Source: a virus. Taken from it: a stretch of DNA of 32,210 nt. Location: positions 1-32,210 of the IMG/VR virus record IMGVR_UViG_3300033388_004406; one strand, 5' to 3'. This document shows positions 721-26,276 of this stretch, one piece after another (the stretch's first letter is position 1; every line of letters begins with the position of its first letter). The translations under genes and the position numbers were made by a program. The notes below the pieces were generated by a model. That model made no database searches, had not been told where the DNA came from, and saw nothing but the letters and a program-made list of their open reading frames with translations.

Positions 721-1263
721 ATGGGATTTTCGGCCGAGGGTATGATTGATATATTCAAAAATCTAGGCGATAATATTATAGGCGCGGAAATAGGCGTCTG
801 CCGGGGGAGAAATATAAAAGCTGTTCTTGATAGATGTCCTAATATCAGAAAAATATACGGGATAGACCCCTGGGCATCTTATCCAGCTATTGATGCGCAA
901 ACAAGTATAGATAATTATATAATTGCTAAAAAAACATTATCTTCTTATATGCTTGATGATAATGTGGAATTAATTAAAACGACATCGCTTAATGCAGCAA
1001 CTACATTATTCAAAGATAATTTTTTTGATTTTGTTTATATTGATGGTGACCATTCGGAAGAAGCTGTTTTCTGTGATTTGCATGCATGGTGGCCAAAAGT
1101 AAAATCTACTGGCATTTTATGCGGACATGATTTCCGGCCTAAAGATATCGCAGTACGTAGAGCCGTGAAAGATTTTGTAAATACTATATTAAAAAATGCT
1201 ATAGTAATTGAAACAAAACATCATTCATGGTATATTAAAAAATACAATTGTGGAGTGCAATAA
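721..1263 (+). CDS. Class I SAM-dependent methyltransferase (Methyltransf_24-like)
   Basis: The protein has 180 residues and shows a Rossmann methyltransferase layout. Motif I is GAEIGVCRGRN (about residues 21-31), followed by an acidic end of strand 2 in YGIDPW (near 47-51), and then DFVYIDGDHSEEAVFCDL (about 103-120), ending with LCGHDF. The YIDGDH element is characteristic of the class often found in glycan and small-molecule modification clusters, including FkbM/TylF-type and Methyltransf_24 enzymes. The substrate cannot be read from the sequence. A good SD (AAGGAGCG) precedes the ATG. The same genome carries two more SAM methyltransferases (6677-7234 and 23806-24453), which suggests glycan or virion modification rather than DNA methylation. 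Confidence 0.82.
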   Translation: MGFSAEGMIDIFKNLGDNIIGAEIGVCRGRNIKAVLDRCPNIRKIYGIDPWASYPAIDAQTSIDNYIIAKKTLSSYMLDDNVELIKTTSLNAATTLFKDNFFDFVYIDGDHSEEAVFCDLHAWWPKVKSTGILCGHDFRPKDIAVRRAVKDFVNTILKNAIVIETKHHSWYIKKYNCGVQ

Positions 1264-6676: not shown

Positions 6677-7234
6677 ATGAAAAAAGTTAAGAAAATTATT
6701 AACGGAAATATTTTTTGGAAATATAACGGACGTTTATATCCCGATTATTTGGCGCATGGAAATGCCCAGGCTTTTATTTCTGAAATTGCATTAAAATATT
6801 GTGTTGGTAATGGGTTAGATATCGGTGCGGGAATTAATGTTTTGCCTGGTGCCACGCCAGTCGGACAATGGCCGCTTTTAAATATGGGAGCGCATAAATT
6901 ACCGCATTCTAATTGCGGAAATCAAACTTTGGATTATATTTTCAGTTCGCATTGCTTGGAGCATTTAAAAGCACCAGGCGAAGCGCTTGATTTATGGATT
7001 AGTAAAATCAAAACAGATGGGATACTTTTTCTTTATTTGCCACATCCTGATATGGAAATGTGGCGGCAGGGTGAGGAACATGGACAAAAGCATGAATGGA
7101 TACCAACCCCGGCTATTCTTGAAAAAATGTTTAGAGAAAGAAATTTACAAGTTTTAGAAATACAATATACCGAGGATATTTATTATTCGTTTCATATTGT
7201 TGGAAGAAAATTAAAGGAGACTCAAAATGTTTAA
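6677..7234 (+). CDS. SAM-dependent methyltransferase inserted in the head module
   Basis: This 185-residue class I methyltransferase follows a strong AGGAGGG site. Motif I is NGLDIGAGINVLPG (about residues 50-63), the later segment has DYIFSSHCLEHL, and a post-motif region is DGILFLYLPHPD. It resembles small-molecule, glycan or lipid type methyltransferases (Methyltransf_11/23 group) rather than DNA methylases. Its position between portal and prohead protease is unusual because head genes are normally contiguous. Substrate unknown. It overlaps the protease start by 8 nt. Confidence 0.82.
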   Translation: MKKVKKIINGNIFWKYNGRLYPDYLAHGNAQAFISEIALKYCVGNGLDIGAGINVLPGATPVGQWPLLNMGAHKLPHSNCGNQTLDYIFSSHCLEHLKAPGEALDLWISKIKTDGILFLYLPHPDMEMWRQGEEHGQKHEWIPTPAILEKMFRERNLQVLEIQYTEDIYYSFHIVGRKLKETQNV

Positions 7235-7866: not shown

Positions 7867-9348
7867 ATGACTTTTAAAGAATTAGTTGAAAAAATTGTTG
7901 AACATATTAAAAGCGAAAATCTTATCTCACAAGAAGAATTTGATAAAAGCAAAAATTCAGAAAATGAAATCGATTTAAAAAAGTTGAGTGAGTTAATTAG
8001 TGCTGATGTTATGGCAAAGGTTCATTTGGCTATTGTTGAAGAAAGCGCAAAACAAGAAAAAGAAGCGGAGAAAAAAGCGGCTGAATTGCGTGTTTCTGAT
8101 TTAGAAAAACGCGAAAAGGAAGTTAAAGAAAAAGAAGAAAAAATGAAAGAGATGTTAAAGCATGGTGCTCCGCCTATTGCTGGTAGGTTTTCTTCTAAAA
8201 ATATTTCTAAAGCTGACGAGGAAATGCGGGATGCTGTTATTGATGCGCGTGAGCGCGGAACAAAAACAGTGATAAAATCTGATCTTAATGTGGCTCACGG
8301 CGATCATGTTTGTCAGCAAATTGAAATGAATAAAAATAAAGCTGATACAAATTTTGACGCTGCTGCTGGCTATGGTATTGAGTGGGTTCCGGAAGCACGG
8401 GGGACTGATTTGTATGTGCGCATGCAGACTGTTGGAGACTCAATTCATCGACGTTTTAAAAAGAAAAATATGACTTCCCGCACACAAAAAGTTAATGAAT
8501 TGCTGACAGGTGTAACAGTTAAGGTTTATTCCGGGAACCAGACTGCTGACAAAGCACTTGAAAGCGTTGAGGCTTCCGCGTTAGGTACAGATGATTTAAC
8601 ATTGACATCCAAATCATTTGTAGCTAAAAGTAATTTATATGATGATATTATTGAGGATTCCATTATTGACTCAGTGAGAGAACATAAAACCGATCACGCA
8701 ATACAGATGAATGAATCTGTTGACGAGGCCACTATTAACGGTGATACCTCTAGTCCTCATATGGATAATGACACGGAAGATATTGCAAACGATCCCAAAA
8801 AAGCATGGAAGGGTTTGCGTTATTATGCAATTACTGGCGGGTTAACAAGTGACTGGGGGTCTGGTAATTTATCTTTAGCTAATATGGATAAGCTTAAAGT
8901 GTTGCTTGGAAAATATTGTCGTGATCCGAAAACAATTAAGCAAGTTTTTTGGCTGTTAGGAATTAAAGGCATAAATACGCTTGAGGCATTAGCCGATTTT
9001 AAAACAGCCGAAAAAGCTGGGGCAAGATTAACTTTGTTTGATGGGCGAGTCGAAAAGTACTCCGGATATGATCTTTTATCAACTTCGCAAATGCGTGAAG
9101 ATTTGGACGCTGATGGTTATTATGATGATGTTACTAGCGGCCAGGTAAGCACTAAAGGTTCTACTTTCTTAATTAATCCTAGTCAATTTATTTTTGGCGT
9201 GCGAAAAAAATTAAAAACAATAATTGTACCAAAACCGGAAGATGATAAAATTATTATTGTAAGTAAAATTAGGATGGCTTTTTCTCCTTATGAAACGCCT
9301 TCTTCTTCGATTTCTAGCGTTGCTATTGGTATTAATAACACTGCATAA
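7867..9348 (+). CDS. Major capsid protein, HK97 fold, with N-terminal scaffold-like coiled coil
   Basis: The 493-residue protein starts 1 nt after the protease stop. Residues 1 to about 105 are highly charged, with an EKEAEKKAAELRVSDLEKRE coiled-coil type segment, consistent with the delta domain that is removed by the protease. The rest is the capsid fold: AAAGYGIEWVPEARGTDLY near residues 160-178 is the N-arm and P-loop type region, and FVAKSNLYDDIIEDSIID, FLINPSQFIFG and KIRMAFSPYE follow in family order. It forms the shell hexons and pentons. A hairpin (9373-9413) follows it. Confidence 0.93.
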   Translation: MTFKELVEKIVEHIKSENLISQEEFDKSKNSENEIDLKKLSELISADVMAKVHLAIVEESAKQEKEAEKKAAELRVSDLEKREKEVKEKEEKMKEMLKHGAPPIAGRFSSKNISKADEEMRDAVIDARERGTKTVIKSDLNVAHGDHVCQQIEMNKNKADTNFDAAAGYGIEWVPEARGTDLYVRMQTVGDSIHRRFKKKNMTSRTQKVNELLTGVTVKVYSGNQTADKALESVEASALGTDDLTLTSKSFVAKSNLYDDIIEDSIIDSVREHKTDHAIQMNESVDEATINGDTSSPHMDNDTEDIANDPKKAWKGLRYYAITGGLTSDWGSGNLSLANMDKLKVLLGKYCRDPKTIKQVFWLLGIKGINTLEALADFKTAEKAGARLTLFDGRVEKYSGYDLLSTSQMREDLDADGYYDDVTSGQVSTKGSTFLINPSQFIFGVRKKLKTIIVPKPEDDKIIIVSKIRMAFSPYETPSSSISSVAIGINNTA

Positions 9349-12633: not shown

Positions 12634-12900
12634 ATGAAATTAAAATATTGCGGATATGAACCTATTTTTAATACGATTTGGGGGACTTTTATACATGGCC
12701 AAGTGAAAAATGTTCCCAAAACATTAGAAAAAACCGCGCTATCTTTAGCACAAACGCCGCAATGGGAAATAATAACCGAATCACCGGGTATTAGTAGGGT
12801 TGTACAAACAAAATTTGAAACGGAAAGCAAATTTTTTGAACACAAAAAAGGCTCAAAAAGAAGCCGGAAAGGATTGACTAATGACAATGCAACGCGGTAG
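12634..12900 (+). CDS. Small conserved protein upstream of the tail tube
   Basis: The 88-residue product follows AAGGAGG at 12619-12625. Its start MKLKYCGYEPIFNTIWGTFIHGQVK matches a short phage protein type (YxGYEPxFNTxWGTF-like) often located just before tail genes. The C-terminus is basic (KKGSKRSRKG), which may allow nucleic acid or partner binding. It overlaps the tail tube start by 20 nt. Confidence 0.6.
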   Translation: MKLKYCGYEPIFNTIWGTFIHGQVKNVPKTLEKTALSLAQTPQWEIITESPGISRVVQTKFETESKFFEHKKGSKRSRKGLTNDNATR

Positions 12901-14209
12901 TCAAGTTTTTGTAGGATATTCTCAAAATGGGATTTTAGGTGTTCATCGCGATCCGACACATTATGTCGCTTGCGAATCTTTCGCTTACAATGTTGAACCA
13001 ATAGAAATTGATAGGGAAATTTTTATCCCAGGACAACATCACGAATCTATTGAGCGATTAATAGCAGGATTTAATTATTCCGGCAATATGGTTTTTGATT
13101 TACACCCGGCAGAAGGTATTCATTTTATGAAGGGTGTTTTGGGTGAAATCACTACAACCGAATTAACTGGAGCAGGCGCAATTGAACATCAATTTTTAGG
13201 TGGTGATACAGTCCCCATGCCTAATGGGTTTAGTTTTACGGTAGAAATGGACCGGAAAGTTTATTTATTTTCTGGTGTTGTTGTTACCAGTATAGAAAAA
13301 GTTAGCGAGGCTGATGGCGTTGTAAAATGCACCGTTAATTGGATTGCTAAACTTTTGGATATCTCTAGTGATGGCACAAGCGGTACAAGTATAGGACAAA
13401 ATGCAATGAGTTTTACCGTCACGCTTGTTGTAGATACATCTGATCAAATAAAGTTGAATATAGATAGCGGTGGCGCTGTAGAGATAACAATAGCAGCCGG
13501 CGCATATACAACCGCGGCTGCATTGGAAGCAGCTATCAATACAGCTATTGAGGGGACTAGTGGATTGTTAGATAGTGATGGAAATCCAGAGGTTGCCTGT
13601 TATATTGATAGTGATAATAAGTGCCATTTTTATACGGCTGATAAAGGATCGGGCGCAGAAGTTGCCTGGACCGCTGGTACTAACGATGCGAGTACCCTGT
13701 TAGGGATGGGAACGCCTGTTGAAGCTGCTGGTTCTGACACAATCGCATCACCGAGTTACTCATCTATCGCACCGTTTAAAGCGCATCAATTATCGGTTTT
13801 GTATGCCGGTAGTGAAATTTATGTTGATAAATTCACTATTTTAATTGACGCCGGGATAATTGGTAAACGATATCATGGCCATAAATACATGCGCCGGCCA
13901 CAATTAGAAAAAAAGCGTATGATTACCGGATCGTATGAAAAAGATTATGAAGATGAGACAGAAATAACCGCAGCGGTTGCAAATTCTAATGTTGAGTTGA
14001 AAGGACAGTACAGAACTGGTATTGTAGCCGCCGGCGGTGTTAACTACGATGCTGATGAGTGGTTGAAACGTGTGCGTATAACTGGCGCGCCGCATCCGCA
14101 ACCGATACATGGCACTTTACGGCAAGTTGTAACTTTTAAAGCGTACAAAGAGGACGCGACTTACAATGATTATCGTTTTGATGTTATTAATTTATTAAGT
14201 TCAATTTAA
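12881..14209 (+). CDS. Tail tube-like protein with an inserted flagellin-IN-like domain
   Basis: The 442-residue protein has outer parts with a tail-tube/major tail pattern: RGSQVFVGYSQNGILG at the start, FIPGQHHESIERLIAGFNYSG, and the C-terminal LKRVRITGAPHPQPIHGTLRQVVTF. Between about residues 170 and 290 lies an insertion: TVTLVVDTSDQIKLNIDSG, VEITIAAGAYTTAAALEAAI, CYIDSDNKCHFYTADKGSG. This resembles the flagellin-IN type module, in which a beta unit with a terminal D-x-N/G-x-hydrophobic strand decorates filaments. The tail tube is the inner tube of the siphovirus tail. A strong terminator follows. Confidence 0.72.
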   Translation: MTMQRGSQVFVGYSQNGILGVHRDPTHYVACESFAYNVEPIEIDREIFIPGQHHESIERLIAGFNYSGNMVFDLHPAEGIHFMKGVLGEITTTELTGAGAIEHQFLGGDTVPMPNGFSFTVEMDRKVYLFSGVVVTSIEKVSEADGVVKCTVNWIAKLLDISSDGTSGTSIGQNAMSFTVTLVVDTSDQIKLNIDSGGAVEITIAAGAYTTAAALEAAINTAIEGTSGLLDSDGNPEVACYIDSDNKCHFYTADKGSGAEVAWTAGTNDASTLLGMGTPVEAAGSDTIASPSYSSIAPFKAHQLSVLYAGSEIYVDKFTILIDAGIIGKRYHGHKYMRRPQLEKKRMITGSYEKDYEDETEITAAVANSNVELKGQYRTGIVAAGGVNYDADEWLKRVRITGAPHPQPIHGTLRQVVTFKAYKEDATYNDYRFDVINLLSSI

Positions 14210-14818: not shown

Positions 14819-16980
14819 TGCCAGAAGAAAAAATTAGTCTTTTATTAATATTAAAAGATGGTGTTAGTAAGGTTTTTAATAAAATAAAAGGTGCAGGTAA
14901 TAAATTTGCATCTGGCATGAAATCAATTATGGGAACAGTTAAAGACGCTTTTAAAAGTTCCATGTTTTCAGCCGTGGCATTAGGTACGGCTGTATCTCAA
15001 TTTGCATTTAAAGCTATTGCATCAATAAAACAATGGGCAACAGAAGCTAAACTGCAATTTCAAACTTTTGAAAAATCATTAGCGGCTGTTTACACTTTAT
15101 TAGATAAAGATACTTTTAATAAACATGCGAAAGATTTGGAAGATGGCGCAATAAAAATAATGCAAGATTATAATTTATCTATTGAGGACGTTAATAAAGC
15201 ATTATTTGATACTGTATCAGCTGGGGTCAATGCAGCTGATGCAACGGATTTTTTAGCTAGTGCAGCCAAATTAGCCAAGGGTGGCGTCACGGATTTATCT
15301 ACTGCGGTTGATGGTATAACGTCAATCATGAATGCTTACGGATTAGAAACAAATGAGGCATCAAATATTGCGGATGCTTTTTTTACTGCTCAAAAATTTG
15401 GGAAAACCACAGTAGAGGAAATGTCTCGTAGTGTTGGCAAAGTTGTCCCTATTGCAAAAGCGGCAGGCATGTCTTACCAGGAAGTTTTTGCAGCATTATC
15501 GCAGATGACTCTAGCCGGTATTTCAACAGATGAAGCAGTCACAGCTTTAAAAGGAACGCTAACAGCTATAATTAAACCAACAAGCGAAGCGGCTAGCTTA
15601 TTTGATGCGCTTGGGATACCTATGGGGTCTGCTGCTTTTGAAGGTGAAAATTTTGGCAAAACAATGGAAAAAATCAAAACAGCTACAGGCGGTAATATAG
15701 ATGAAATTGCTAAACTCATTCCAAATGTTCGGGCGTTACTAAATGTAACTTCTGTTGCAACAAAAGAAGGATTGCAGAAATATGATGATATATTAAAAGA
15801 GATAAAAATAGACCATGAAAGTTTAACTCAAGCTTTAAAAAAACAAATGGCTGTACAATCTGAATTGATTGCGACTGAAAAAGGAAAATTATTGCCACAC
15901 AAATTAAAACTTGGTAAATTACTTTCTAAAATTGAATTAGGATGGTTAAAATTAGCAAATGCGACATTGAAAGTTAAAAATATTTATGTGGCATCAATGG
16001 GCGTATATGGGCAAGTTTTAGGTTATTTATCTTCAATGGCAAATAAAATAGTAGAAATAACAGGATTAAGAAAAAAAGAACACGATCAAGAAAAAACAAT
16101 AAATGAAGAAAAGAAAACAATCATAGATGAACAAATTGAAAAAGAGGCAGAAGCAAACGAATCTAAACATGAATTGGATCAGGAATTTTTAGATCGTAAA
16201 GCAGAAATGGAATTAATTGCAGAAGAAGCACGGCGAGAATTTGAACAACAGAAAAAGAATTTTGATAATTTATCCGCAGAAGAAAGGATAAAATTATTAA
16301 CTGATCTTTTAGGAAAAGAAAAAATAATAAAAACAACACAGCAAATACAGGAATTGCTAGAAAAAGGATTACATGAAAAGGCTTTAGCAAAACAAAATAA
16401 ATTATACCACGCTGCTTTTATTAAATTAAATAGCGAAACTATTGAAAATTTAGATAACAGCTGGAAAAAACACTGGACTTTTTTATTAGCAGGACAAAAA
16501 TTAAATGCCAAAGAACGAAAAACAGTTGATAGCGCCATGGCGACTGCTTTTTCTGATATTATGTATTTAATGGGAAAAGAATCAATCGCAGCTTTTAGAA
16601 TTATGCAGGGCGTTGCTATAGCAGAGACATTGCTCAAAACTTATGAATCTGCCCAGCTTGCTTTTACTGCGCTTGCTGGTATTCCCATTGTTGGGCCTGT
16701 GCTTGGGGGTATTGCGGCCGGTGTAGCTATCACAGCCGGATTGGCGCGCGCAGAATCTATCAGACAACAACGTCCGCCGGCCTTAGAAAAAGGTGGTCGC
16801 GTTGTAAGGGGCGGTTTAGCTGAACTGCATGATGCAGAAGTGATATTAAATAAAACAGAAGCGCAAAACATAGGATCACCGCAAATAATTAATATAATTT
16901 GGGATGATGAAACAATAGCTACCTTTGTTAGTGCTTTTGAATCAAAAAAAGAGCAATATATCGAAGAGGGGAAAATATAA
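14818..16980 (+). CDS. Phage tail tape measure protein (TP901 type)
   Basis: This 720-residue protein starts with a TAATG overlap on the chaperone-like gene. The TP901 core is clear around residues 95-270: SIEDVNKALFDTVSAGVNAAD, DLSTAVDGITSIMNAYG, MSRSVGKVVPIAKAAGMSYQE, AALSQMTLAGIST. Charged coiled-coil sections fill about residues 415-500, and a hydrophobic segment (about 605-645, LAGIPIVGPVLGGIAAGVAI) follows. The C-terminus has LEKGGRVVRGGLAELHDAEVI, a common tape measure ending. It sets tail length and takes part in DNA injection. By the usual rule of about 0.15 nm per residue the tail would be near 110 nm, supporting a siphovirus. Confidence 0.92.
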   Translation: MPEEKISLLLILKDGVSKVFNKIKGAGNKFASGMKSIMGTVKDAFKSSMFSAVALGTAVSQFAFKAIASIKQWATEAKLQFQTFEKSLAAVYTLLDKDTFNKHAKDLEDGAIKIMQDYNLSIEDVNKALFDTVSAGVNAADATDFLASAAKLAKGGVTDLSTAVDGITSIMNAYGLETNEASNIADAFFTAQKFGKTTVEEMSRSVGKVVPIAKAAGMSYQEVFAALSQMTLAGISTDEAVTALKGTLTAIIKPTSEAASLFDALGIPMGSAAFEGENFGKTMEKIKTATGGNIDEIAKLIPNVRALLNVTSVATKEGLQKYDDILKEIKIDHESLTQALKKQMAVQSELIATEKGKLLPHKLKLGKLLSKIELGWLKLANATLKVKNIYVASMGVYGQVLGYLSSMANKIVEITGLRKKEHDQEKTINEEKKTIIDEQIEKEAEANESKHELDQEFLDRKAEMELIAEEARREFEQQKKNFDNLSAEERIKLLTDLLGKEKIIKTTQQIQELLEKGLHEKALAKQNKLYHAAFIKLNSETIENLDNSWKKHWTFLLAGQKLNAKERKTVDSAMATAFSDIMYLMGKESIAAFRIMQGVAIAETLLKTYESAQLAFTALAGIPIVGPVLGGIAAGVAITAGLARAESIRQQRPPALEKGGRVVRGGLAELHDAEVILNKTEAQNIGSPQIINIIWDDETIATFVSAFESKKEQYIEEGKI

Positions 16981-17763: not shown

Positions 17764-18360
17764 ATGTTACCATTAATTGTTGTCGGTGGTGGAGAAAGTG
17801 CTACTAAATATTTCCCTTTTTTATGGGATGATTTAAAAAAAACAAAAGCCGATATATTAAGTATTAATTCTATTTTTGAAATAATGCCATATCAGCCTAC
17901 TATACAATTATGGATGGATGAAAAATTTTTCCATACAAATCGGCAAAAATTGTTTGATTTACGATCAAATGGCAGTTCTCTTTATACGCAAAATTTAAAA
18001 ATTTATAGCAATTGCCCTAACAAGATAAATACATTTATTAAACATAAAGATATAACTGATTATGATAATAAAAAAATATTTGTAGGACAACGTTGTTTAT
18101 CTGGTATGGCCGCATTGTCATTAGCTGTAAAATTGCATTATTTCCCCATTTTTTTATTTGGGTATGACTTTTATCCGCAAAATATTAAGCAACGTGATGT
18201 TTACCAAAACATTGACGGTGGTGTTGCGGATCATGTCAAGGATTTTGATTATTTTAAAAATCATATTAATAAAATTTATTTAGTTGGCGAAGAAAGCAAA
18301 ATAGAAAGTTTTCATAAAATAGATTATAATAATTTTTTAAGGAGAATCGAAAATGTCTGA
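17764..18360 (+). CDS. Rossmann-like glycan-related protein (DUF115/MAF-like)
   Basis: This 198-residue protein has LPLIVVGGGESATKYFPFLW at the start, LSINSIFEIMPYQPTIQLWMD in the middle and GQRCLSGMAALSLAVKLHYFPIFLFGYDFYP near residues 117-147. The combination of a G-G-G-E-S phosphate-type loop, an (I/V)N-x-x-(F/Y) strand and a late SG-x-x-AL ... GYDF motif recalls phage proteins of the DUF115/MAF and sialyltransferase-like type. These are thought to act on sugar residues, but the chemistry for this one is unknown. It is embedded between tail genes. The C-terminal half of the 22317 gene shares the same late motif. Confidence 0.55.
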   Translation: MLPLIVVGGGESATKYFPFLWDDLKKTKADILSINSIFEIMPYQPTIQLWMDEKFFHTNRQKLFDLRSNGSSLYTQNLKIYSNCPNKINTFIKHKDITDYDNKKIFVGQRCLSGMAALSLAVKLHYFPIFLFGYDFYPQNIKQRDVYQNIDGGVADHVKDFDYFKNHINKIYLVGEESKIESFHKIDYNNFLRRIENV

Positions 18361-20666: not shown

Positions 20667-22298
20667 ATGGGCAACAGTAATTTACCAAAAATTGCGGCAG
20701 CACCGACAGAGGTTGAAGCAACTAGCACTCAGTATAATGCTGTTGTTGATGCTTTACATGGTGATTTAGTTGCGCGGAATTCTTCTGGGGTAAAAACTGA
20801 CGGCGCCGGGGATATTGGTGAACCGGGTGGGGGTAGATTTGATAAGTTGCATTTAAAAACTGGAATGACTGTTGCTAATAGAGTAATAGATTTTTCCACT
20901 ATTAGTTTACATCCATCAGGGGTTACTTCCGGCAAATCTAAAGTTAGCGGGTTTCCTAATTTTTTAACTCCACTAGGCGTTGATGGTGGTGCAACTAACA
21001 CTTTTACGATAGAGGCCGAATCAACTAATTTGATTATGACTATTGATGGTGTATCTTATAAATTGGAAATTGATTTGGTAAGCGATGATTTAGCGCTTGC
21101 ACCTGGTGCTAATAATTTATGCGATATCGACGATACTTTTTTTGCAGATCAGGATTTAACTAAATATGTGGGTGAACATGGATATTATATTACTATTGAT
21201 AATATTGGGAGTGAAATTACAGACTCTAGGGGAACGTTGCAATGTTTCAAACATGGTTCGGAAGTTTTTATAGGAAAACTCGATGCAGTAGAAGATTACA
21301 TAACGCCTAGATTTCGCGGAATTGGCGGGACAGCAAGGGAAGTTTTTTCTGATGATGATACAATAACATTATTAAAAGCACATTATATTTTTTTAGATAA
21401 AGACCTGGCCACAGTTGATACTACTACTAATTATCCTATTTGGTCAGCAATCGAACCGGCTGCGCCGGCCACAGGTGATCGATGGTGGGATGTTGTTAAT
21501 ACAACCTGGAAAAGATACAGTGGCGCATCATGGGAAACTTTGGGGCAGATATATCTAGGTTATGCAATTTGTGACGATGCAGATTGTTTGTATGTGCAGC
21601 ATGAGGATTATAATATAGCCTGGAATGAGTTATGCTATTTTAACACAATAGAGACTGATGCGGCCGATAGAGGTTTATTACATGTTTTTGGAGACATTAA
21701 AGTTAATGTTGCAAATAATTTAGTGTTTTCAGGAGATGTTATTTTAGATAAAGATTCTGATTTTGTATCTGGTGAATCTGATCCGGCAACAGGATGGATA
21801 TATATATATATCGATAATCTCGGAAATATATTTTTAAGCACAACTGCTCCGCGGCCCAAAGATCATAAACTAGGCTGGTATCATCCAAATGAATATTGGC
21901 GGTTGTTGAGCATGGCTTACAAATATGAGGCAGCAAGCATATTAATGATGTCGCATTCATCCAGGGAAAATTTAATTTCATATCAAGATGATTGGGATTG
22001 GCATAACACCCCCACAACTGGACTTTATGATAGTTATGTTTGTCCTATTATCAGGCATGCTGAAATAGATTGGCGGACTACTTTGCCTAATGGCGCTACA
22101 ATAGGCAAAATAACAATAACATCTTTAGATAGAGATCCTGTGACACAATATCTAATGGGTTTTTCTTCTTCTGCCTTTGTTCCGGCCTCATACACTCTTA
22201 AGTCATCTGGTTTATTCCGAAGCGGAATAATGAATATTACTGTTACTGGTTTTAATGCTCTTGATATTAATATAAGCAAAATTTTTATTAATTTATAA
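20667..22298 (+). CDS. Tail fibre / receptor-binding protein candidate
   Basis: This 543-residue protein has the N-terminus of many phage fibre proteins: LPKIAAAPTEVEATSTQYNAVVDALHGDLVARNSSG, followed by GDIGEPGGGRFDKLHLKTG. Beta-rich modules continue to the end, with GWIYIYIDNLGNIFLSTTAPRPKDHKLGWYHPNEYWRLLSM in the second half and a terminal MNITVTGFNALDINISKIFINL. The late module looks like a C-terminal adhesion domain. It precedes the glycan cassette, so it may be the target of those enzymes. Confidence 0.66.
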   Translation: MGNSNLPKIAAAPTEVEATSTQYNAVVDALHGDLVARNSSGVKTDGAGDIGEPGGGRFDKLHLKTGMTVANRVIDFSTISLHPSGVTSGKSKVSGFPNFLTPLGVDGGATNTFTIEAESTNLIMTIDGVSYKLEIDLVSDDLALAPGANNLCDIDDTFFADQDLTKYVGEHGYYITIDNIGSEITDSRGTLQCFKHGSEVFIGKLDAVEDYITPRFRGIGGTAREVFSDDDTITLLKAHYIFLDKDLATVDTTTNYPIWSAIEPAAPATGDRWWDVVNTTWKRYSGASWETLGQIYLGYAICDDADCLYVQHEDYNIAWNELCYFNTIETDAADRGLLHVFGDIKVNVANNLVFSGDVILDKDSDFVSGESDPATGWIYIYIDNLGNIFLSTTAPRPKDHKLGWYHPNEYWRLLSMAYKYEAASILMMSHSSRENLISYQDDWDWHNTPTTGLYDSYVCPIIRHAEIDWRTTLPNGATIGKITITSLDRDPVTQYLMGFSSSAFVPASYTLKSSGLFRSGIMNITVTGFNALDINISKIFINL

Positions 22299-22316
22299 TT
22301 ATTGAAGGGGTACAAT

Positions 22317-23804
22317 ATGATTATTCGCGGCGCGCGTGGATTAGGTGATGCATTATTTTTATATCCAATAATAGAATATTATATTAATAAGGGCGAAAAT
22401 GTTACTGTTAAAACAAATTATCCAGAAATTTTTAAAGAATTAAATTGCAAAACAGTTCCTTTAATAACAGCTGGTACGACTGATATTGTTGCGCGATATG
22501 CTGAAAGATTTGAAAATCCAGAAACTAATATGCTTGAAGATACAGCCATTTTAGCGGATATGCCTTTACCTGTTGAATTGAGTGTAAAATATAAATGTAA
22601 GCGTAAATTTAAATTTAATACTAATAAAAAAATATGTGTAATTAGGCAACCTGATTACCCTATGAATGCAAAAAGACCAGAATCAACTTTGGTTTTAGTT
22701 CCTAAAATAGAAATTATTCAAGAAATAATTAATAAATTCAAAGATGAATGTTATTTTGTGTTAGCTGGAAGCGGTCATGGATTAAAACCAGAATTAACAG
22801 GTATAGACGAAGATTTAACCGATATATCTGTTATACAAGAATTATTAGAGTTAGTTAATTCTTCTGATATAGTTTTGACTCAAATGGGTTATATGCTGCC
22901 TATGGCTGAAGCATTAAATAAAAAATTATTTTCTTTACATTCTTATGCCGGATTACATACTAATCAAGCTTTTTATCGGTGGTTAACTCCGCAAAAATCA
23001 GTAACAAGAAAATCCTCTGTTTATATAATTGATAATGAACCAATTAATCAAATTTTAAATAAATTCAAAGAATTACTTGATAGAAAAGAAATAAAAAAAC
23101 CAGTATTAAGACGATCCAGGAAATTTGTAGATAATTTTTTTAAAAATAAAAGTGTCGTTATTTTAGGATCAGCCCCTAACGTTAAAAATATCTCTGCTAA
23201 AAAATTGAATAGTTTTGATATTGTAGTTAGAGTAAATAATTATAAAATATTTAATGAGTGTAAACGTGTTGATGTTTTTTATTCTTTTTTGGGAAAAAGT
23301 ATAAGAACTACAAACGAAGAAATAAAAAAAACAAAATGCAAGTTAATATATTGTAAATGTCCGAATGAAAATATAATAACAAAAAATATTAATGGTGAAA
23401 TAAACGAACGTTTAACAGAAGATTTTCGTTGGATTTATTGTTTCCGGTCGGATTGGTTTAATGTTCCGTATTATATTCCACCAGTAGAAACCTTTAGTCA
23501 AAATAGCGCTTTTGTTAACCAGGTTATGACTACTGGTGTAAGTGCAATTATAGATATTTTACGACACAAACCCACCTTAGTTCATATAGCTGGTTTTGAT
23601 TTTTTTACCTCCGGGTTACATAATGGCGGTGCGGCCGCAAAATGGAAAGGAAAAAAAGGACATAATTTTGAAGGCGAGGCAAATGTTGTCCGTAAATTAT
23701 TGAAAAATGATTGGATAACTTGCGAATCTGAAATAAAAGATTTGTTAAATAAAAAATTAGTGTGGAATTTTAACGGTGAAGTAAAAAAAATAGAAGGGCA
23801 ATAG
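22317..23804 (+). CDS. GT9-like and GT29 (sialyltransferase)-like fused glycosyltransferase
   Basis: ATG 22317 follows AAGGGG. The 495-residue protein has two parts. Residues 1-250 have a heptosyltransferase (GT9, GT-B) appearance: MIIRGARGLGDALFLYPIIEYY, FVLAGSGHG, NSSDIVLTQMGYMLPMAEAL. Residues about 275-480 have sialyltransferase-like motifs: VVILGSAPNVKN with FDIVVRVNNYK (L-like motif), then MTTGVSAIIDILRHKP with VHIAGFDFFTSGLHN (S-like motif), and HNFEGEANV as an H-x-x-E element. Each part would transfer a sugar (heptose or similar, sialic or other acid sugar) onto a glycan; the acceptor is unknown. It is coupled with the methyltransferase that follows. Confidence 0.72.
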   Translation: MIIRGARGLGDALFLYPIIEYYINKGENVTVKTNYPEIFKELNCKTVPLITAGTTDIVARYAERFENPETNMLEDTAILADMPLPVELSVKYKCKRKFKFNTNKKICVIRQPDYPMNAKRPESTLVLVPKIEIIQEIINKFKDECYFVLAGSGHGLKPELTGIDEDLTDISVIQELLELVNSSDIVLTQMGYMLPMAEALNKKLFSLHSYAGLHTNQAFYRWLTPQKSVTRKSSVYIIDNEPINQILNKFKELLDRKEIKKPVLRRSRKFVDNFFKNKSVVILGSAPNVKNISAKKLNSFDIVVRVNNYKIFNECKRVDVFYSFLGKSIRTTNEEIKKTKCKLIYCKCPNENIITKNINGEINERLTEDFRWIYCFRSDWFNVPYYIPPVETFSQNSAFVNQVMTTGVSAIIDILRHKPTLVHIAGFDFFTSGLHNGGAAAKWKGKKGHNFEGEANVVRKLLKNDWITCESEIKDLLNKKLVWNFNGEVKKIEGQ

Positions 23805-23805
23805 A

Positions 23806-24453
23806 ATGGATAATATTATTTCAAAATTTAAATATAAAAAAAAAGGAATATTAAATATCTGCAAATATGGGATTGCATATCAGCGAGATATTGCAGTTTC
23901 TGTTCCGTATGGTAAAAAATATTTTGATATTTTGAAAAATTTCGAATATAATAGAAAATCACGGAAAATAAATTTTGGCAGAGTATGGCTAGTTGGAGCT
24001 TATTGTGCCGGCGAAAATGTGCTAGATATTGGAGCAGGCGCGGGAACATTTATAAACCGATGGGCACCTTTTGAAATATATGGGTATGATATAAATAAAT
24101 ATAGCGTAGCTTGGCTGAAATCACAGAATAAATATTATAATATAAGAAAATCATTAGATAAATTTACTGGGTTTACTTTTTGGGATACATTAGAACATAT
24201 AGCCGAACCACAAGAAATTCTAAAACGTATTCCAAAAAATGCTTATGTATTTGTTTCTATACCAATATTTAAAAATTTTAGAAACATTACACAAAAAAAA
24301 CATTATAGACCGAATGAACATTATTATTATTTTACAAAAAAAGGTTTAATTTTTTGGTTTAAAAAACATAATTTCAAACTAATAAAATATTCTGATTATG
24401 AAACTAAAAAATGTGGCCGTGAAAACATCGGTAAGTTTGTTTTTCAGAGGTGA
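23806..24453 (+). CDS. SAM-dependent methyltransferase of the glycan cassette
   Basis: This 215-residue class I methyltransferase starts 1 nt after the glycosyltransferase stop. Motif I is NVLDIGAGAGTFINRW (about residues 70-85), followed by IYGYDINKYS, then TFWDTLEHIAEPQEIL, with a post-motif AYVFVSIPIF. It is of the Methyltransf_23 type, often found methylating sugars or glycolipids. The tight linkage with the GT9/GT29-like enzyme suggests it methylates the same glycan. The region ends with an SD for the terminase small subunit. Confidence 0.82.
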   Translation: MDNIISKFKYKKKGILNICKYGIAYQRDIAVSVPYGKKYFDILKNFEYNRKSRKINFGRVWLVGAYCAGENVLDIGAGAGTFINRWAPFEIYGYDINKYSVAWLKSQNKYYNIRKSLDKFTGFTFWDTLEHIAEPQEILKRIPKNAYVFVSIPIFKNFRNITQKKHYRPNEHYYYFTKKGLIFWFKKHNFKLIKYSDYETKKCGRENIGKFVFQR

Positions 24454-24456
24454 ACT

Positions 24457-24864
24457 ATGCAAAATACAAATATTGAAATAGAAGAAAAACCTAAAAAGGG
24501 CCGGCCTAAAGGCGTTCGAGCATGGAAATTAGTTATGAGGGAATGTTTGTGGTTATTAGAACATAAACCGGAAAGATTAGAAAAAAAAATCGGGCAAAAA
24601 TTGCCACCTGAATTAAAAAAACGCGATTTACAATCAATTTTATTTATAAAATATTTAACACAAGCATTGAACGGCGAATTAAAAGCTTTTGAAACTATTA
24701 TGAGATGGATGGACGGCGACCCTAAACAAACATTAGAAGTAACCGGGCAAGTTGAAATTAAACCAGTAGTTGATTTTGAAAGATTGTCTATGCCATTACA
24801 AGAAAAATATTTAGAAGAAAGATTACAACATATAAAAAAACTTAAAAAATTGGCTAAAAAATGA
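24457..24864 (+). CDS. Terminase small subunit
   Basis: The 135-residue protein starts after GAGGTGA and overlaps the large subunit start by 4 nt. It begins with an AT-hook-like KKGRPKG, then has helices in ELKKRDLQSILFIKYLTQALNGELKAFE and MDGDPKQTLEVTGQVEIKP, a common pattern for small terminases in this position. The small subunit recognises the packaging site and hands DNA to the large subunit. The C-terminal basic LKKLKKLAKK is consistent with DNA binding. The assignment is strong through adjacency to the large subunit. Confidence 0.85.
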   Translation: MQNTNIEIEEKPKKGRPKGVRAWKLVMRECLWLLEHKPERLEKKIGQKLPPELKKRDLQSILFIKYLTQALNGELKAFETIMRWMDGDPKQTLEVTGQVEIKPVVDFERLSMPLQEKYLEERLQHIKKLKKLAKK

Positions 24865-26276
24865 ATAGTTTTGGAGTTAAAAAATCATGGTTAAGGGCTA
24901 GTTTGTTAAATACTAAACAATATGTCCACGATTGGTATGAACCAGGAACGATTCATAATCAATTGGCAGGTGTGTTGTGTGACGAAAAAATTACAAAATT
25001 TCTTATTTCAGTCGCTCCGCAATTTGGAAAAACTGAATTGGTTTGTAGAACTTTTCCAGCGAATTATCTTGCACATAATCCAAATAAAAATATATTAATA
25101 ATAACTTATAGCCAAACATACGCGAATGCACTATCTGTTCAATGCCGCGATTATTTTTTGTCAGAAAAATTCCAAGAATTGTTCCCTTCAAAACTTCATC
25201 CTGAAATGTCAACCAAACATGAGTGGCGATTAGCTCCGCCATATAGGGGTGGTGTGGTTTTTTCTGGGAAGGGAATAACCGGCAAGCCGGCTGATATGAT
25301 TTTAGTTGATGATATTTTTGCGACTTATGAAGATGCTATGTCACGCGTCGAACAAGAAAACGCGGAAAATTGGTATTATAATGTTTTGTTACCGCGTTTA
25401 CAATCGGAAAAATCGCGCATAGGTGTGATTATGTCCCGTTTTGTTAGGGGTGATTTAATAGGTAGAATTATTGCAAAAGAAAAAAAAGAACACATACCTA
25501 AAAAAGATCAATATTATAAATTGAATATTAAACCTATTATTAATTGTAAGAAAAAAGGCGACAGGACTACAGGAGAATCTTCCTGGCCGCAAAAAAAGTC
25601 GTTAAAATTTCTTTTAAATGCTTATAAAAATTCGCCTAGCGTGTTTGTTTCTTTATGGGAAGGCAACCCACGCGATACCGAAGCGTTAATTTTTGATCCT
25701 AAATGGTTTAAAATAATTTCCGCATCGGAATTAAAATCTTATGGAAAACGTTTGTTCTCCGTTCGAGCGTGGGATTTTGGATATACAGAGAGTGGAAATG
25801 AAACCGCCGGCGGTAGAATAGACGTTTTTGAAAACAATAAACCAGTTATTATTAATATAAAATCTTTTTATGCTACGCCTAAGGACGCGAAAATAAAAAT
25901 TATTGAAATAACACTAGAAGACGGAACAAAAACTATAGTCGGGGTTGAATCTGGCGGTACGCAAATTGCTATGGCGGATAGTATAAAAGATGCAGAAGAA
26001 TTACAATTATATACGGTAATTTCTAAGCCGCCAATAAAAAACAAAATACAGCGATCAAGTTCTTGGATGTTGCGTGCAGAAGATAAAAAACTTGTGATGT
26101 TAGAAGGTCCTTGGAATGATGATTTTCTGCAAGAATTAGAAGATTTTTCGGAAAACTCTAAAAAGGATAATAAAATTGATAGTGTTTCTTTGGCTTGGCA
26201 GATTCTTTATGGAAAAAGAGGGAGACATAAGGAAAATGAAAATAAAGAGAAAGGAGGTGCGGACAATGCAAAATAA
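24861..26276 (+). CDS. Terminase large subunit (ATPase and nuclease)
   Basis: The 471-residue packaging motor has a Walker A-like loop SVAPQFGKTEL (about residues 50-60, Lys57) and Walker B MILVDDIF (about 145-152, with the usual acidic pair). Adenine-binding and coupling helices follow, including NVLLPRLQSEKSRIGVIMSRF. The RNase H-like nuclease domain shows RAWDFGYTES (Asp305) and IVGVESGG, and the C-terminal acidic cluster QELEDFSENSKKDNKIDSVSLAW. It drives ATP-powered DNA packaging through the portal. Here it lies after the tail module instead of before the portal. Confidence 0.94.
   Translation: MNSFGVKKSWLRASLLNTKQYVHDWYEPGTIHNQLAGVLCDEKITKFLISVAPQFGKTELVCRTFPANYLAHNPNKNILIITYSQTYANALSVQCRDYFLSEKFQELFPSKLHPEMSTKHEWRLAPPYRGGVVFSGKGITGKPADMILVDDIFATYEDAMSRVEQENAENWYYNVLLPRLQSEKSRIGVIMSRFVRGDLIGRIIAKEKKEHIPKKDQYYKLNIKPIINCKKKGDRTTGESSWPQKKSLKFLLNAYKNSPSVFVSLWEGNPRDTEALIFDPKWFKIISASELKSYGKRLFSVRAWDFGYTESGNETAGGRIDVFENNKPVIINIKSFYATPKDAKIKIIEITLEDGTKTIVGVESGGTQIAMADSIKDAEELQLYTVISKPPIKNKIQRSSSWMLRAEDKKLVMLEGPWNDDFLQELEDFSENSKKDNKIDSVSLAWQILYGKRGRHKENENKEKGGADNAK

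Follow-up and report, generated by a model that had tools for sequence, protein, structure and literature searches.

The window, that is to say the whole 32,210-base stretch analysed here, is the linear virus record IMGVR_UViG_3300033388_004406 (G+C 33%, possibly incomplete), with its large genes on the plus strand. It contains an open reading frame (ORF) for a 495-residue protein in which a domain of the GT9 (heptosyltransferase) type is predicted to be fused to a domain of the GT29 (sialyltransferase) type, directly ahead of a methyltransferase gene that we designate MTA (Table 1). The frame could start at 22302 (TTG) or, more likely, at 22317 (ATG, preceded by AAGGGG), and ends at 23804. 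We regard it as a real gene because a second virus encodes a full-length homologue (approximately 36–40% identity over the whole length). The motifs named in a first-pass annotation made from the letters of the DNA are all present, with RGARGLGDALFLYP at the ORF start and GSAPNVKN, TTGVSAIIDILRHKP, and AGFDFF in the second half, and the MTA ORF begins 1 nt past the stop codon of the fused ORF, as had been noted. Library searches with the window protein returned no glycosyltransferase name; among the fused ORF and its neighbour, the methyltransferase alone could be named.

AlphaFold models of the two halves were built on alignments of their relatives. The N-terminal half (predicted local distance difference test [pLDDT] score 93, predicted template modelling [pTM] score 0.90) had eight top structural matches that all belonged to GT9 (Z scores of 17.0–18.7), namely TibC (Z 18.7) and WaaF (Z 18.4) at the head and WaaC within the same range, and the next group followed at 14.4–14.7. 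As modelled, the N-terminal half is of the GT9-type fold, which spans its whole length. An aspartate near the N-terminus, D11 (codon 22347–22349) in a G-x-x-G-D loop, is invariant in 42 of 42 sequences and is taken by us to be the equivalent of the catalytic Asp of WaaC. Comparison with the GT9 enzymes WaaC, WaaF, and TibC revealed that (i) the window domain is shorter (approximately 260 versus 320–390 residues); (ii) it lies beyond the reach of Pfam by sequence; and (iii) it is fused to a second glycosyltransferase. At the sequence level, its PHROG match, phrog_6804, is a family without an assigned function, and PF01075 (GT9) matches 3 of the 42 N-half relatives (best E 3.6e-4). A PDB sequence search with the N-half profile found no true relative, and tblastn of the N-half against 50,697 phage records gave one credible weak match, in phage Mulvp2 (E 0.05), which a later check placed in the right family.

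The C-terminal half (pLDDT 89, pTM 0.87) matched pig ST3Gal1 best (Z 13.3, 2.9 Å over 178 residues), followed by ST6GalNAc2 (Z 12.7), ST8SiaIII (Z 12.6), HPPK (Z 12.3), and the GT42 enzyme CstII (Z 10.9), the last of which came first in Foldseek's own ranking. A sialyltransferase-type fold is well supported by this model; however, because the HPPK score is tied with that of ST3Gal1 to within 1, the fold alone is not decisive for GT29. Forty-three relatives align to the C-terminal half at 29–41% identity, and R305, TG407, GFD428, H435, and H449-x4-E454 are invariant in all 44 sequences, with N307 kept in 41. These residues correspond to the sialyl motifs L, S, and VS (the latter as H-x4-E), a mapping onto ST3Gal1 that we assume from knowledge of the family and not from superposition. 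PF00777 (GT29) matches 30 of the 44 sequences at E values up to 1, and one of them, from locus L069, exceeds the cut-off (24.9 versus 23 bits); no other Pfam family matches more than 3, and GT42 matches none. The GT29 designation, which has the best structural match, the L/S/VS-like motifs, and the Pfam matches of the relatives in its favour, is probable, with the GT42 and HPPK/MptE folds as close competitors. The domain differs from ST3Gal1, ST6GalNAc2, and ST8SiaIII in being phage-borne, shorter (approximately 230 residues), and, in the window, below Pfam detection, whereas the related sialyltransferase fold of GT42 (Cst-I, Cst-II) scores lower in Z than GT29.

The fusion of a GT9-like and a GT29-like half in one frame, as proposed in the first-pass annotation, is thus borne out by the predicted structures, in which these two families gave the best matches by Z score and no other superfamily scored better for either half. 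The Pfam comparison that had been suggested divided, in that the window protein matches neither PF01075 nor PF00777 but relatives of each half do. For the C-terminal half, direct library searches yielded nothing convincing, a PDB sequence search with its profile found no true relative, tblastn against the 50,697 phage records gave no match, and no PHROG family matches the GT29-like family well.

Relatives were sought in virus contigs with a degenerate DNA pattern of the S-type motif of the C-terminal half. The pattern occurs in at least 119 virus contigs, compared with 4 for a control pattern shifted two bases out of frame, and twice in the window (in the C-terminal half and in the ORF at 17764–18360, where it spans 18100–18174), compared with 0 expected in shuffles. 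All counts of close and remote relatives that follow are among the matches listed from this search, which gave 72 distinct close relatives of the C-terminal half in other contigs. These form 52 clusters at 70% identity and therefore do not represent one phage sampled repeatedly.

Although the loci were retrieved by the C-half pattern alone, homologues of the N-terminal half lie directly upstream. Among close relatives with enough flanking sequence by strict criteria, and with the remote S-motif proteins of the same search as the control, (i) a GT9-like gene is directly upstream or fused in 47 of 47 (remote control, 0 of 26); (ii) a methyltransferase gene of one of three families (MTA, MTB, and MTC) is downstream in 46 of 46 (remote control, 0 of 18), MTA itself in 43 of 46; and (iii) another sialyltransferase-fold gene is further upstream in 40 of 47 (remote control, 0 of 26), a count that is not of a clean subfamily because members of the GT29-like family are picked up by the iterated sialyltransferase (ST) profile as well. 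The usual order of this cassette is ST-like, GT9, GT29, and then methyltransferase genes of up to three families, the order of which varies. Mostly it falls inside the head-tail module, either flanked by head-tail connector genes or following the gene for the capsid; same-strand head, tail, or terminase genes lie within approximately 5 kb of it in 44 of 51 close-relative loci of at least 6 kb, by contrast with 4 of 25 remote loci. The earlier idea of a compact glycan-building unit gains strength from this gene order, which is conserved in about 70 virus contigs.

The S-type motif also occurs in other settings. Viral proteins of approximately 190 residues (TTGFVAIYWLLNH...GFDFFKTKNR; L016, L045, L048, L063, and similar loci) carry it without GT9-like or methyltransferase partners. 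By eye, a long frame in L078 runs on from the S-motif domain into a methyltransferase-like stretch, the S-motif domains of L068 and L120 are apparently fused to other glycosyltransferase-type domains, and L024 holds another long viral frame with such a domain.

The same GT9–GT29 fusion is encoded on contig IMGVR_UViG_3300038954_000279 (loci L099 and L216, both of this one contig). There, the fused gene is followed by MTC-like and MTB-like genes, sulfotransferase-like and cupin-like genes (these two recognised by eye), and another ST-like gene. As in the window, it lies upstream of the terminase genes (by eye). The two fused proteins are sisters in the trees of both halves (0.995 and 0.994); therefore, one old fusion explains both. 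All six cassette families are present in the window, scattered, with the GT9 and GT29 genes fused (Table 1). The first-pass annotation had placed the fused gene between a tail fibre gene and the terminase genes; the terminase stands, but the protein encoded directly upstream (20667–22298), supposedly the fibre, has no PHROG match at E 0.01.

Table 1. Cassette genes, domains of the fused protein, and structural genes in the window.
Feature	Position	Strand	Basis
Fused two-domain glycosyltransferase (predicted), 495 residues	22317..23804	+	Open frame; full-length homologue in L099/L216
N-terminal GT9-type (GT-B) domain (predicted), approximately residues 1–258	22317..23090	+	AlphaFold and structural matches; phrog_6804 E 3e-5
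C-terminal GT29-type (sialyltransferase-fold) domain (probable), residues 263–495	23103..23801	+	AlphaFold; Z 13.3 to ST3Gal1; PF00777 in relatives
S-type motif TTGVSA...GFDFF	23532..23606	+	Served as search pattern
Methyltransferase MTA, 215 residues	23806..24453	+	phrog_6564 E 1.4e-44; Methyltransf_23 E 1.3e-13
Small ST-like protein, 198 residues	17764..18360	+	phrog_4603 "alpha-2,3-sialyltransferase" E 2e-4; cassette ST profile 1.3e-14
Methyltransferase MTB, between portal and prohead protease	6677..7234	+	phmmer to 46 other cassette-locus ORFs, best 1e-39
Methyltransferase MTC	721..1263	+	phmmer best 7e-18 (L085); L099 1.9e-12
Portal	4439	+	
Prohead protease-like	7227	+	
Probable capsid protein	7867–9348	+	Size and position
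Tail protein	12881–14209		
Tape measure	14818	+	
Terminase large subunit	24861–26276	+	phrog_38 E 6e-64

Parts of the cassette are found in isolated phages. A GT9-like gene adjoins a methyltransferase gene in D3 (orf12/orf13), Eowyn (gp004/gp003), Psp6, Mulvp2, and BUCT-ZZ01, and an annotated sialyltransferase gene is also present in D3 (orf7) and Eowyn (gp005); in Pseudomonas phages D3 and Psp6 and Enterobacter phage Mulvp2, this short module is among the head-tail genes. The D3-type pair of phrog_6804 and phrog_6564 resembles the cassette in having the GT9-like gene directly before the methyltransferase gene, but in the stretches read no GT29-like gene was seen with it, and the pair is not fused. 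The "hypothetical" orf12 of D3 (NC_002484.2; locus L003) belongs to the GT9-like, phrog_6804-like family, next to the methyltransferase orf13 and near orf7. For one relative, L054, neither the GT29-like nor the GT9-like protein matched anything in the 50,697 phage records, and its GT29-like protein had no match in a plasmid collection. One of 300 genomes of one bacterial order has the GT29-like gene, and this carrier was already known. The literature searched holds no description of the cassette.

We propose that these genes specify a glycan-building pathway, most likely one that decorates the virion, and put the probability of this reading at roughly 0.6. Soluble enzymes of the GT9 and GT29 folds use cytosolic nucleotide sugars, and the window protein is probably a cytosolic two-domain glycosyltransferase, composed of a GT9-type GT-B enzyme and a GT29-type enzyme, that would act together with MTA and probably also with the ST-like glycosyltransferase and the two further methyltransferases encoded elsewhere in the window. 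Sugars would be added one after another and the product methylated, which would give a short capped glycan, and through the fusion a single polypeptide would carry out two steps in succession. The likeliest acceptor would be one of the phage's own head or tail proteins, and the virion would then bear the short methylated glycan. What the analysis shows is the two folds as predicted, conserved residues of the active-site type, the conserved gene set with its usual site in the head-tail module, and the fusion in two viruses; we infer catalysis, the order of the steps, the sugar donors, and the choice of the virion as target. A virion protein is favoured as the acceptor because the cassette is located among head and tail genes and because there is a precedent in mycobacteriophages, whose glycosylation of capsid and tail tube by phage-encoded glycosyltransferases is cited in PMC12363180 (Che8, Corndog, and Myrna) and PMC12619734. 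A more specific version is tentative, and we would not favour it over its alternatives: a six-family pathway, its order largely conserved in about 70 uncultured phages and two of its enzymes fused in the window, that puts a methylated glycan with a sialic-acid-like or 3-deoxy-D-manno-octulosonic acid (Kdo)-like sugar on the virion.

Several observations weigh against decoration of the virion by such a pathway: the window C-terminal half has no Pfam match of its own, the cassette parts are scattered in the window, and in both viruses with the fusion the fused gene is upstream of the terminase genes and not beside the capsid gene. In addition, the GT9 enzymes WaaC and WaaF act on lipopolysaccharide (LPS), which would also fit modification of the host surface. 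In that case a host surface glycan, be it LPS core, lipooligosaccharide (LOS), or exopolysaccharide, would be altered by the cassette late in infection, which might, for instance, keep progeny from sticking to debris or shut out other phages. We consider this unlikely, yet a serious rival because LPS or LOS is what WaaC/WaaF and the Cst enzymes modify: WaaC and WaaF are among the nearest GT9 structures and the LOS enzymes CstII and Cst-I (GT42) among the C-half matches. The sulfotransferase-like and cupin-like genes in the cluster of the second fusion virus point the same way, as does the suggestion of exopolysaccharide as the target of a lone phage sialyltransferase gene (PMC12772287). By contrast, 44 of 51 cassettes are near structural genes, mostly in the head-tail module, which is an unusual site for dedicated host-surface genes, and no gene for a flippase or other membrane transport was recognised in six cassette loci read by eye.

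Two further readings are much less probable than modification of the host surface. The C-terminal domain might be an MptE/HPPK-like pyrophosphokinase-fold enzyme, or a noncatalytic relative, instead of a glycosyltransferase, which we regard as improbable. The closeness of the HPPK fold noted above speaks for it, and PF01973 touches 3 of the 44 relatives (best 0.018); however, PF00777 touches ten times as many, once past its cut-off, the H-x4-E, R-x-N, and TG..GFD residues are kept in 41–44 of the 44 sequences as expected for GT29, and the genes constantly found beside it encode a different glycosyltransferase and methyltransferases. Still less credible is the glycosylation and methylation of phage DNA bases as protection against restriction. 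Hypermodification of DNA by phage glycosyltransferases has precedent (a reference in PMC12619734), and the window encodes a DPPY-type methyltransferase, but the cassette sits with structural genes, and no base-hydroxylating or base-hydroxymethylating enzyme was recognised among the window ORFs by eye, in a record that may be partial and without a profile search.

Virion glycosylation by phage enzymes has been shown for a few mycobacteriophages, as far as the literature found reports. If virion decoration holds, the conservation of a multi-enzyme cassette within the head-tail module would mean that this strategy is common among uncultured phages and has a defined set of genes. The fusion is a firmer link than gene neighbourhood between the GT9 and GT29 steps as parts of one pathway, and the cassette offers "hypothetical" genes of model phages, such as orf12 and orf13 of D3, a role that can be tested.

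Two other genes of the window have relatives. The DPPY-type methyltransferase gene (2056–2649) probably encodes, judged by eye, a DNA methyltransferase, and relatives of it were found. The small protein encoded at 211–705, which is hydrophobic at its N-terminus, has a weak homologue at 14838–15350 of L216 (33% over 90 residues, E 5e-4), where it adjoins the ST-like gene of the second virus with the fusion; the small protein may travel with the cassette.
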